Positions 27,465-31,892 of a DNA stretch of 64,000 nucleotides are shown one piece after another. The notes under the pieces were generated by a model. The model did not search any database, was not told where the DNA came from, and saw nothing but the letters and a program-made list of their open reading frames with translations. This stretch comes from Gluconobacter sp. P1C6_b (GTDB lineage: Bacteria; Pseudomonadota; Alphaproteobacteria; Acetobacterales; Acetobacteraceae): NCBI RefSeq assembly GCF_018811945.1, contig NZ_JACRVU010000001.1, forward strand, positions 195,476 to 259,475, written 5' to 3'. A program made the position numbers and the translations under genes. Position 1 is the stretch's first letter, and each line of letters opens with the position of its first letter.

Positions 27465-28964
27465 TTACGCCCCCGGCTGATCCAGAAACTCCCGCAGACG
27501 GGAGAGACCCTCACCGAAGTGCCGTCGCTCACTGCCCCCCTGCGCCCCGTTCCCCAGCCGCAGCAGCCAGGAGGGATGGGCAAGTGCCAGACGCCGGACG
27601 GCTTTTTCGCCTGTCCCCACGGTCCATGACGTTCCACGCACATCCGACATCGCCATGCCCGGCCCGTCCAGCGCCCTGAGCGCCGTGGCGCCCAGCGAGA
27701 CGATGAGTTTGGGACGAATCAGCGCGATTTCCTGCTCCAGCCACGGCCGGCAGGCCACCACATGCGCTGCATCCGGGTTCTGATGGATGCGGCGGCGGCC
27801 CTGAAGACGGAAGCGGAAATGCTTGACGGCATTCGTCAGATACAGCGCGCCGCGCTCAACCCCGGCCTCTCCGAGGGCCTCATGCAGGAGCTGCCCCGCC
27901 GGACCGACGAAAGGACGTCCGGCCAGATCTTCCTGATCGCCCGGCTGCTCCCCGACCACCATGATACGTGCCTCTGCAGGCCCCTCCCCGACCACGGCCT
28001 GCGTCGCCGGACAGTGCAGCGGACAGGCCGTGCAGGTCCGGACCTGAGCAGCCAGCCCCTCAAGGGTCTCCGCCATGTCCGGCACCTGTGTGACCAGACG
28101 TGTTTCACGGGCCCGCAGGCGCTCATGAAAAGCCGGTGCAGGCTGGAGCTCCTGTTCCGCCATTGTCCGCACCCTCGCTTCGGCTCCGGCAACGAGCTGC
28201 GGGATCAGGCGGGTTTCCGGAAGGTTCTTCCAGTAACGGCCGGGCATTTCGCGGCGCATCGCTTTCGTGCGCACACGCGCCGGATTGAAGGTCGAGGCAT
28301 AATAGGTGTCCCACAGCTCCCCGAAACCATCATCCAGCTCCGGCCGCTCGCAGGGTTCCGGACTGTAGACTACCTCTTTCCCGTCCCAGCGGATCGATCC
28401 GCGCGGGGTGAGGATCATCCAGTCCATGTCCGTAAATCGCTTCGAGAAGAACGGAGCGATGCGTTCGAGAATGTGGTGCTGCGGCTCGAACCAGGCGAGG
28501 AACCGTCGCCTCGCGTCCTGCCCCTCGCCCCGCTGGACGGGATCTTCCCGGAAGCGGAGAAAAGACGCCATCTTGTGGCAGTCCTCCCGGTTCTGCCGCA
28601 CCATGATCCGCGCTTTTGCGATATCGACATCCGTCACCACGTCCAGCAGATGCGGATTCCCCTGCACCCGCCAGGCGATCCGGTAGGCAAGTGCGAACCG
28701 ACCGGGATCGGAATGGCACAGCAGGTCCCGCAGCAGCGCGATGCAGGACGCCCGCAAGGTCACGGTTTTCACGACAGGCAGGGCCGTCAGCGCCTCCAGC
28801 CCGTCGCCGTTATCGGTGATCTGGCCGAAAAGATCCGTCTCCCCATCCCGGATGCGCCAGTCGAGGGCTTCGGGCGGGATCGCGCGCTGCAAGGCTGCCC
28901 GTGCCATGTCCCGCCAGGGCTCGAAATCCGCACTGTCCTCAAGAGTCAGAACATAGCGGATCAC
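27465..28964 (-). CDS. DUF4130-UdgX fusion: predicted uracil-DNA glycosylase/DNA-crosslinking protein
   Basis: 499 residues. Residues 1 to about 270 match the DUF4130/TIGR03915 'DNA metabolism' domain; about 300-495 form a family-4-like uracil-DNA glycosylase of the UdgX group. Visible: Fe-S cysteines in VRTCTACPLHCPATQ, the glycosylase motif GEQPGDQEDLAGRPFVGPAG and the UdgX-specific loop LQGRRRIHQNP, whose His is the residue that attaches covalently to the abasic site in studied UdgX proteins. It is coupled by a 4-base overlap to a radical SAM gene of the SplB-like class with which such genes are nearly always paired. It follows a LexA-like box. Confidence 0.9.
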   Translation of the reverse strand: MIRYVLTLEDSADFEPWRDMARAALQRAIPPEALDWRIRDGETDLFGQITDNGDGLEALTALPVVKTVTLRASCIALLRDLLCHSDPGRFALAYRIAWRVQGNPHLLDVVTDVDIAKARIMVRQNREDCHKMASFLRFREDPVQRGEGQDARRRFLAWFEPQHHILERIAPFFSKRFTDMDWMILTPRGSIRWDGKEVVYSPEPCERPELDDGFGELWDTYYASTFNPARVRTKAMRREMPGRYWKNLPETRLIPQLVAGAEARVRTMAEQELQPAPAFHERLRARETRLVTQVPDMAETLEGLAAQVRTCTACPLHCPATQAVVGEGPAEARIMVVGEQPGDQEDLAGRPFVGPAGQLLHEALGEAGVERGALYLTNAVKHFRFRLQGRRRIHQNPDAAHVVACRPWLEQEIALIRPKLIVSLGATALRALDGPGMAMSDVRGTSWTVGTGEKAVRRLALAHPSWLLRLGNGAQGGSERRHFGEGLSRLREFLDQPGA

Positions 28965-30193
28965 AGAAGGCTCATCTGCCGGGGCGCGGGACTGAACCGG
29001 CTGCGCAGATCCTGCCGGTCGGTCAGGCGGCCCGGACTCCAGCCCGGCGTCTGCACGAACGGGCGCACCTTGCGGATGGAGACGTTCAGCCGCGCCAGAT
29101 CCTCCAGCCGTACTGCCTGATGCCGCCGCGCCCTGAGAATGGACGCCACGGCCTTGACCCCCAGCCCCGGCACCCGCAGCAGCATTTCCTTCGACGCCCG
29201 GTTCAGATCCACCGGAAACAGCGCCCGGTTGTCCAGCGCCCAGGCCAGTTTGGGGTCCAGTTCCAGATCGAGCATTCCGTCCGCGCGCCCGGCCGTCAGT
29301 TCCCCGAAGGCGAACCCGTAGAACCGGAACAGCCAGTCCGCCTGATAGAGCCTGTGCTCGCGCTGAAGCGGCGGACTTTTCGCGGGCAGCAAAGCCGAAG
29401 CGTCCGGAATGGGACTGAAAGCCGAATAATAGACGCGACGCAGCCCGTAAGAGCCGTAAAGATTGGCGCTGCTGGCCAGGATATCCTGATCGGACGCCGC
29501 ATCCGCGCCTACAATCATCTGTGTGCTCTGCCCACCCGGCGAGAAGCGTTCGGCCCGGCGCCCGGTATGGCTGCGCTCCTTACCCGCGTCGATCTTCAGA
29601 CGCATCTCGCCCATCGCCTGCCGGATACCCCCCGCCTTTTTCTGCGGCGCATACTGCTCCAGCCCGGCCACGGTCGGCATTTCCACATTGATCGACAGAC
29701 GGTCCGCATAGCGCCCGGCTTCTTCCAGCAGGCGCGGGGAGGCATCGGGGATGGTCTTGAGATGGATATACCCCCGGAACCCGTGCTTCAGCCGCAGATC
29801 CCGCGCCACCTGTACGAGCTGTTCCATCGTGTGATCCGACGAACGGATGATGCCCGATGACAGGAACAGCCCCTCGATGCAGTTGCGCCGGTAGAACTCC
29901 AGCGTGAGCCACACGACTTCCTCGGGCGTGAAGCGGGCACGCTCCACATTCGAGGATGAGCGGTTGATGCAGTAGGCGCAGTCATAGACGCAGAAGTTGG
30001 TCAGCAGGATCTTGAGCAGCGACACGCAGCGGCCGTCCGGCGTAAAGGCGTGGCAGATCCCGTTTCCCGTCGTGGAGCCCAGGCCGCCGCTTTTGGCCGA
30101 GTCCCTGCGCCCCGACCCGCTCGACGCGCAGGACGCATCGTATTTCGCCGCATCGGACAGAATCGCCAGGCGCTGGGAGAGAGATTTCTTCAT
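28961..30193 (-). CDS. UdgX-linked radical SAM protein (SplB-like, putative DNA modification/repair)
   Basis: 410 residues. Radical SAM motif FCVYDCAYC (CxxxCxxC) at about 70-80, binding the 4Fe-4S cluster, preceded by CHAFTPDGRCVSLLKILLTN. A C-terminal helix-hairpin-helix-like segment (LLRVPGLGVKAVASILRARR) points to DNA binding. It belongs to the TIGR03916-type family, whose chemistry is not established; similarity to spore photoproduct lyase suggests nucleotide repair or alteration. First gene of a two-gene operon with a GTTC-N7-GTTC box six bases before its start. Confidence 0.9.
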   Translation of the reverse strand: MKKSLSQRLAILSDAAKYDASCASSGSGRRDSAKSGGLGSTTGNGICHAFTPDGRCVSLLKILLTNFCVYDCAYCINRSSSNVERARFTPEEVVWLTLEFYRRNCIEGLFLSSGIIRSSDHTMEQLVQVARDLRLKHGFRGYIHLKTIPDASPRLLEEAGRYADRLSINVEMPTVAGLEQYAPQKKAGGIRQAMGEMRLKIDAGKERSHTGRRAERFSPGGQSTQMIVGADAASDQDILASSANLYGSYGLRRVYYSAFSPIPDASALLPAKSPPLQREHRLYQADWLFRFYGFAFGELTAGRADGMLDLELDPKLAWALDNRALFPVDLNRASKEMLLRVPGLGVKAVASILRARRHQAVRLEDLARLNVSIRKVRPFVQTPGWSPGRLTDRQDLRSRFSPAPRQMSLL

Positions 30194-30198
30194 TGCAT

Positions 30199-30213
30199 GT
30201 TCTTATTTCGTTC
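30199..30213. promoter_or_regulatory. LexA (SOS) box, alphaproteobacterial type
   Basis: GTTC, seven bases (ttatttc), GTTC: an exact match to the alphaproteobacterial LexA motif. It lies six bases upstream of the radical SAM start at 30193, overlapping where the ribosome-binding site or transcription start would be. Confidence 0.75.
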
Positions 30214-30371
30214 CAGAATACGAAGCGCAAGAAGAATCGTTAATTTAACCAGTTGTTTCCCAGTTTTCCGTTATTTCCGGGGGGCTTTTTTTAACGGGGC
30301 AGATTCAGCTTCCGTTAACCACTCCCCCCTATCCTGACTCCGCAAACCTGCACCGACGGAGAACAGATTCA

Positions 30372-31892
30372 ATGTCATTGTCAATCAATACAAACACTGC
30401 GGCAATGGCCGCACTCCAGAGCCTCAACCAGACGACGGCTGACCTGACCAAGACCGAAAACGCGGTCTCCACGGGCAAGTCGGTCAACACGGCCTCTGAT
30501 AACCCTGCAATGTACTCCATTGCCCAGAACATGACCGCCCAGATCTCGACGCTGTCGGGCGTCTCCACGGGCCTCGCGTTCTCCGCCCAGGTGCTGAACA
30601 CCGCAACGACCGGCCTGTCGAGCATCTCCAGCGCACTTCAGTCGCTCGCGACCACGATCGGCACGAACACGACGGGCGTCGACAACTCGACCCTGGACGA
30701 CGCCATCACCAAGACGCTGGCGTCCATCGACTCTGCTGCCACCGGCGCGAAGTTCCAGGGCGTGAACCTGCTGTCCGGCCAGACGGGCAATGGTACGACC
30801 TACACGACCCTGTCCACCGCCATGGATTCCCAGGGCACGATGTTCACCCAGAATGGCTTCGACGTGACGTCCGCGGGACTCGGTCTGACGAACCTGAGCA
30901 TGGAAATGTCCGGCTCTTCGCTGGCGCTGGGCAGCAGCACCGGTACGTCCACGGCAACGGCGCTTGGCACGAACAACGTCATCCAGCTCAAGAACACGAC
31001 GGCCGCAACCACAACAGCTACGCCGAGTGCAACGACGCCGTCCGTTACCTATGACTTCATCGCGGACGACCAATCGACCGCCGGACAGGGCACGGCTCTG
31101 GGTATGGTCAGCCTGGCGATCGGCGGATCAGGCTCGGACCTCGCGCTTGGCAAGGACGGCAAGCTGACAAGCTCCGGCTCGGTTACAATCAAGTCCCAGA
31201 CCACGGCATCCGACGGATCGATCACCTATTCGCTGTCAAACGGAGACAGCATTGTCCAGTCCAAGGATGGCAATGGCAACTCCGTTTACACTGCCAACAC
31301 GGCATTCGACTCCAATGGCAACGTTACGACCAAGTCCGTCATCACGGACGTCAACACGTCTTCCGCAGCGTCGCTGAGCACTACGGGTGGTACATCCAGC
31401 GCCCAGAGCGTCAAGCAGGTCGACCTGATGACGCAGGCTATGGAATATCAGGGTTTTGGCGTCTCCCGCGATTCCAGCAATAATCTGACGATCGCCGGAA
31501 ACTCTCTTGACGCGACGTCCACGGAGATGGGTACGGTCAGCGCCGGGGCCTTCACGGCCGGTACAGCCGATACCACCACGGGCTTCACTGGCAAGGCCAC
31601 CGCCGTCACCGGCGCGTCGGTTGTCAGCGCCGTCGTTCAGGCTGCAATTTCCAGCGTGACGCGCACGGCGTCCACGATTGGTTATTCCAGCACGACGATC
31701 TCCAACCTCCAGACCACGACGTCCAGCCTGTCTGACGCCCTGACGACGGGTGTGGGCGCCCTGACGGACGCCGACCTGGCAGCAGAGAGCGCCAAGCTGA
31801 CCTCGCTTCAGACGAAGCAGCAGCTTGCTGTTCAGTCGCTGTCGATTGCGAACTCGCAGTCGTCCACCCTGCTCAGCCTCTTCCGCGGCTGA
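30372..31892 (+). CDS. flagellin
   Basis: 506 residues. N-terminal D0/D1: [20 protein letters not shown] and [27 protein letters not shown]-terminal D1/D0: [35 protein letters not shown]. The middle (about 145-400) is a Ser/Thr/Gly-rich variable region exposed on the filament. Exported by the flagellar type III system, no signal peptide. GGAG lies about 10 bases before the ATG. No clear sigma-28 or sigma-54 promoter was found in the 178-base upstream spacer, which also carries the divergent SOS-like operon. Confidence 0.95.

Follow-up and report, generated by a model that had tools for sequence, protein, structure and literature searches.

A putative LexA operator conserved ahead of a radical SAM and DUF4130–UdgX operon in Gluconobacter

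Introduction

SOS control has been predicted for a two-gene UDG (COG1573)–COG4277 operon in Bacteroidetes, in a passage of PMC8565304 which also mentions earlier reports of the same control from Verrucomicrobia and Alphaproteobacteria. A comparable prediction for Clostridium acetobutylicum CAC3343–CAC3344 appears in the relevant part of PMC3828012; it differs from the present case in concerning a Firmicute and in being drawn from footprinting combined with expression data under butanol and butyrate stress. The section of PMC3765255 that deals with DUF4130 links this domain with SplB-like radical SAM proteins and with UDGs, and the class motifs of UdgX are set out for the Mycobacterium smegmatis protein in the corresponding text of PMC10359453.

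The locus considered here lies in a 64,000-nt stretch of Gluconobacter DNA, referred to as the window. Its radical SAM gene belongs to TIGR03916, which we take to be the same family as COG4277. As in the operon described in the cited passage of PMC8565304, a UDG-family gene is paired with COG4277 under LexA motifs; the organisms differ, the UDG-family gene here is a DUF4130–UdgX fusion, and other LexA motifs are found outside the Alphaproteobacteria. Since SOS control of the pair is already in print, the regulation is of a known kind, and what is new is this instance, the breadth of its conservation and the change of motif.

Results

Genes of the operon

The radical SAM gene (28961–30193, minus strand, 410 amino acids) scored 550.1 bits against TIGR03916, for which the cut-off is 343.5. 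The three cysteines of its CxxxCxxC cluster motif (C68/C72/C75) are shared by all 10 proteins that were aligned, and a search of the PDB with the radical SAM profile returned nothing at E 0.01. Overlapping it by 4 nt is a second gene (27465–28964, minus strand), which profile matches identify as a fusion of TIGR03915/DUF4130 (amino acids 12–251) with UdgX (TIGR03914; amino acids 253–487). The scores were 187.5 for TIGR03915 (cut-off 112.25), 118.5 for Pfam DUF4130 (cut-off 27) and 281.8 for TIGR03914 (cut-off 189.95). The first-pass annotation had described a radical SAM/UdgX pair; the radical SAM assignment holds, and the partner is corrected to a DUF4130 (TIGR03915)–UdgX fusion.

The UdgX half carries GEQPG at residue 338, RRIH at residue 391 and HPSWLLR, corresponding to motif A (GEQPG), the R-loop (RRIH) and motif B (HPS...R) as given for M. 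smegmatis UdgX in that part of PMC10359453. Lys-105 of the M. smegmatis KRRIH loop is replaced by arginine in the window protein, which further differs from M. smegmatis UdgX in having an N-terminal DUF4130 part and an overlapping radical SAM gene. Against the PDB (6ail, 8iie), the best match reached E 4.8e-46 over amino acids 294–469, and the UdgX chains, of 205–229 amino acids, cover only this portion of the window protein. Among relatives, 102 loci were scanned and the UDG could be read in 90, with GEQPG present in 88 and IH or LH at the end of the loop in 86.

In the best 80 of 587 named loci, a partner match was found in 78. Seven of these 78 partners consist of the DUF4130 part alone, the UdgX half being missing from the second gene (L314, L315, L316, L318, L360, L371 and L383). 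On this distribution, the constant pair would be radical SAM plus DUF4130, and UdgX a common, probably optional, addition. Judged from their families, the radical SAM enzyme and its DUF4130 partner would alter a damaged DNA base, and the UdgX domain, which has the cross-linking histidine motif, would excise uracil and cap the abasic site covalently.

The box and the weight of a single site

The proposed GTTC-N7-GTTC motif ahead of the radical SAM start was located at 30199–30213 as GTTCTTATTTCGTTC on the plus strand; the operon's coding strand reads GAACGAAATAAGAAC there. Five bases (30194–30198), rather than the six originally given, separate it from the ATG at 30193.

The window contains five GTTC-N7-GTTC sites against 1.99 expected, and at least five were obtained in 6 of 100 shuffles; the other four sites all lie inside ORFs of at least 175 amino acids. 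Across the 3.39-Mb genome there are 121 such sites, compared with 24 for the backward pattern. By simple arithmetic, chance would put a site in the 50 nt ahead of any one chosen gene in about 0.2% of cases, and with 121 sites an accidental box just upstream should occur at a few genes in each genome. The earlier argument that a single site so placed is unlikely by chance was therefore overstated: a lone site is no proof, and conservation decides its meaning. In a census for which 100 of the 121 sites were listed, 93 distinct places, comprising the window and fetched loci, were covered, and a crude composition test put about 14 of the 93 outside ORFs.

LexA and its motif in the host genome

A single LexA scoring over the family cut-off was found in the genome of the window, and it is full-length. 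The direct repeat is present upstream of both host lexA (GAACCTATAAGGAAC) and host recA (GAACATTTTGCGAAC), so the motif appears to be in use in this genome, and GTTC-N7-GTTC would, as far as can be judged from sequence, be the motif used by the host LexA. The same motif is given for Alphaproteobacteria in the pertinent passage of PMC8565304 and for Caulobacter in that of PMC12907096. Assignment of the box to the alphaproteobacterial LexA type is thus borne out by the published motif and by the host's own lexA and recA.

Two further LexA/UmuD-like ORFs occur in the genome, and these raise the alternative that a LexA paralogue, or another regulator of the same motif, acts at the box in place of LexA; the different element found at the pair in Xanthomonadaceae, described below, would also fit such a regulator. 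Both ORFs, however, score below the lexA cut-off, and their match is confined to the C-terminal region of the profile (positions 83–201 and 89–201), whereas the one LexA over the cut-off is full-length. Moreover, GTTCTCTTTCTGTTC is present in three copies in the genome (L002, L003 and L072), two of which lie close upstream of these short ORFs, so that the ORFs look like targets. We consider action by a paralogue highly improbable, and LexA itself remains the preferred regulator.

A further copy of the motif, GAACATATAGAGAAC, lies outside ORFs on contig C10 of the same genome (L060:801–815), flanked, as judged by eye, by a DNA cytosine methyltransferase-like ORF and a conjugation coupling protein-like ORF.

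Conservation of the box in the genus, family and class

The radical SAM gene was found in 22 of 26 genomes of the same genus and was absent from the other 4. Each of these 22 loci, among them that of the window, has a box within 110 nt of the start. An identical 15-mer sits exactly 5 nt before the ATG in 19 of the 22; one locus (L006) has a variant box at this same distance, and in the remaining two, L004 and L005, the box and the ATG are 80 and 93 nt apart.

For the family, 200 genomes were drawn, of which 74 gave a match over the cut-off, and 70 of the 73 matches other than the window were examined, three partial matches (G112, G144 and G169) being omitted. The exact box was present within 300 nt upstream in 54 of 70 loci. 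When the spacer was set to other lengths from 0 to 15, the count fell to 0–4 of 70 in the family and 0–2 of 22 in the genus, and CTTG patterns in the family set likewise gave 0–4. In the stretch 300–600 nt upstream, the exact box was found in 0 of 69 family loci and a version with at most one mismatch in 10 of 69; a one-mismatch box within 300 nt is accordingly not rare by chance. The exact box is missing from 16 family loci: in 8 of them a one-mismatch version lies no more than 60 nt from the match start, 3, all from one genus, have a palindrome, GAACAAACGTTC, and 5 (L135, L152, L159, L168 and L174) showed nothing near the start.

In other alphaproteobacteria, a set of 59 loci from which 8 further over-cut-off matches were left out, the box was present within 300 nt in 58 and in none of the 59 control stretches 300–600 nt upstream; L221 was the sole locus without it. 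For the best 80 of 587 named loci, the corresponding figures were 74 of 80 and 0 of 80. The family, class and named sets overlap (L390 and G042, for example). De-duplication discarded loci that had a 35-nt piece of the gene start in common, together with two from Xanthomonadaceae. Of the de-duplicated alphaproteobacterial orthologues, 193 of 213 have GTTC-N7-GTTC within 300 nt upstream; the exact box is absent from the remaining 20, some of which carry one-mismatch versions. Conservation upstream of orthologues, the test set beforehand, was thus found in the family, in the other alphaproteobacteria and in the de-duplicated set.

The three palindrome-bearing family loci belong to genus g18 (G042, G132 and G186), in which GAACAAACGTTC, of the form GAAC-N4-GTTC, replaces the direct repeat just before the radical SAM start. 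A changed LexA motif in g18 was considered and rejected: the direct repeat was found at recA in 3 of 3 and at lexA in 2 of 2, so that LexA is unchanged in that genus. The loci with GAACAAACGTTC ahead of the radical SAM gene are L110, L111, L112 and L390.

Replacement of the motif outside the class

All 29 over-cut-off matches from Pseudomonadota outside the Alphaproteobacteria were taken as a further set. GTTC-N7-GTTC was found in none of these 29 loci. CTGT-N8-ACAG, which we take to be the E. coli-type LexA box, was present in 19 of 29 against 0 of 29 in the control, and the looser CTG-N10-CAG in 24 of 29 against 2 of 29; conversely, CTGT-N8-ACAG occurred in 0 of the 59 alphaproteobacterial loci. 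Neither box was found in five of the 29 (L247, L272 and L273–L275). The Xanthomonas-type motif TTAG-N6-TACTA was also tried and dropped, being present in 0 of 29.

That the place is kept while its sequence follows the lineage is strong sequence-level evidence that LexA control itself has been selected. Since this control appears to survive a change of LexA motif, the operon would be under selection to be damage-induced, and the lesion handled by the pair can consequently be sought with SOS-inducing agents. The timing of the pair would thereby be fixed: it would act during the SOS response in nearly all the alphaproteobacteria examined that carry it and, by way of a different box, in most of the other Pseudomonadota examined.

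On the strength of the motif, its positional conservation, its exchange for the E. coli-type box and the motif at host lexA and recA, we are highly confident in predicting that 30199–30213 serves as LexA operator for a two-gene SOS operon, radical SAM gene first and DUF4130–UdgX fusion second. Retention of the box in the majority of the relatives examined makes it very probable that DNA damage induces the operon.

Promoter anatomy and proposed mechanism

A −35 element (CTTGCG, 30226–30231, minus strand) and, 17 bp from it, a −10 element (AAATAA, 30203–30208, minus strand) were predicted by reading; the −10 is a poor match and falls inside the spacer of the box. In many relatives, TATAGT or TATAAT occupies this position. 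Relative to the coding strand, 167 of the 193 boxes read GAAC-N7-GAAC and 26 read GTTC-N7-GTTC. The spacer of the GAAC-oriented boxes tends towards ATATAGT, which places a TATAAT-like −10 within the box; a match at four or more of six positions was found in 109 of 167, compared with 1.4% of control hexamers, although AT-richness is a general feature of the spacer. Of the 167 GAAC-oriented boxes, 109 have a TTG about 17 bp upstream, as against 10% of control 11-mers. From the box to the nearest in-frame start codon the median distance is 5 nt, and in 118 of 167 the distance does not exceed 8 nt.

Since the box and the predicted promoter core overlap, LexA is expected to block RNA polymerase, and in the GAAC-oriented loci generally it should cover the promoter core. 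Bound at 30199–30213, LexA would cover the −10 in the N7 spacer as well as the −35, thereby excluding RNA polymerase; on damage, RecA filaments would trigger self-cleavage of LexA and release transcription. Transcription would then start a few bases from the ATG and yield a near-leaderless mRNA encoding both proteins. The operon mRNA of the window is thus predicted to be probably near-leaderless, and those of many relatives should be nearly so.

The same overlap lends something to the view that an AT-rich promoter contains this 15-mer by chance, or that overlap with promoter and start signals alone has kept it: many relatives have a spacer like a −10 element, and GTTC-N7-GTTC sites number 5 in the window and 121 in the genome. 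Promoter signals do not, however, require the GAAC repeats, and enrichment is limited to the 7-base spacer (54 of 70; other lengths give 0–4). The box furthermore stands at varying distances and in both orientations, and CTGT-N8-ACAG takes its place in other classes. On the spacer, position and motif-change controls, a chance match was rejected, and we give this explanation very little credence beside a LexA operator.

The flagellin neighbour

A divergent flagellin-like gene (30372–31892, plus strand, by ORF reading) shares the intergenic region 30194–30371 with the operon. That the box governs this gene instead of the repair operon is the least probable of the explanations and was rejected, for although the box is 158 nt from the flagellin start, which adjoins in 20 of 22 genus loci (15 by pattern, 5 by eye), L004 and L005 have the box with no flagellin start upstream, and a flagellin match was found in 1 of the best 80 of 587 named loci against 74 of 80 for the box. 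Given the shared divergent region, LexA bound there might also touch flagellin transcription.

A third element in Xanthomonadaceae

In Xanthomonas dyei, Pseudoxanthomonas suwonensis and three genomes of family code f196, here taken as Xanthomonadaceae, GTCTCA-N5-TGAGAC precedes the pair, with one mismatch in G874. Both LexA boxes are absent at the pair in these five genomes. The exact palindrome occurs at 12 places in the five, compared with 0 for the backward pattern: 4 at the pair, 4 before a TIGR03817-like helicase gene, 2 before uvrA, and L394 and one other besides. The uvrA assignment was confirmed; the helicase, for which a partial protein was used, scored below the TIGR03817 cut-off.

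We entertain, as a tentative and rather doubtful generalization, that each lineage keeps the radical SAM–DUF4130(–UdgX) operon damage-controlled by its own regulator, through the direct repeat, the E. coli-type box or GTCTCA-N5-TGAGAC. Were this so, the palindrome would mark a small DNA-repair regulon outside both known LexA motifs, with the pair as a core member.

Of the one-mismatch palindromes, seven were also examined (L403–L409). No repair gene was found at L403 or L405; two copies precede a PA0069-family radical SAM gene, and one each precedes the helicase gene, an RmuC-family gene and a YgjP-like metallopeptidase gene. The loci at which the palindrome was noted are L392, L393, L395–L402, L404 and L406–L409.
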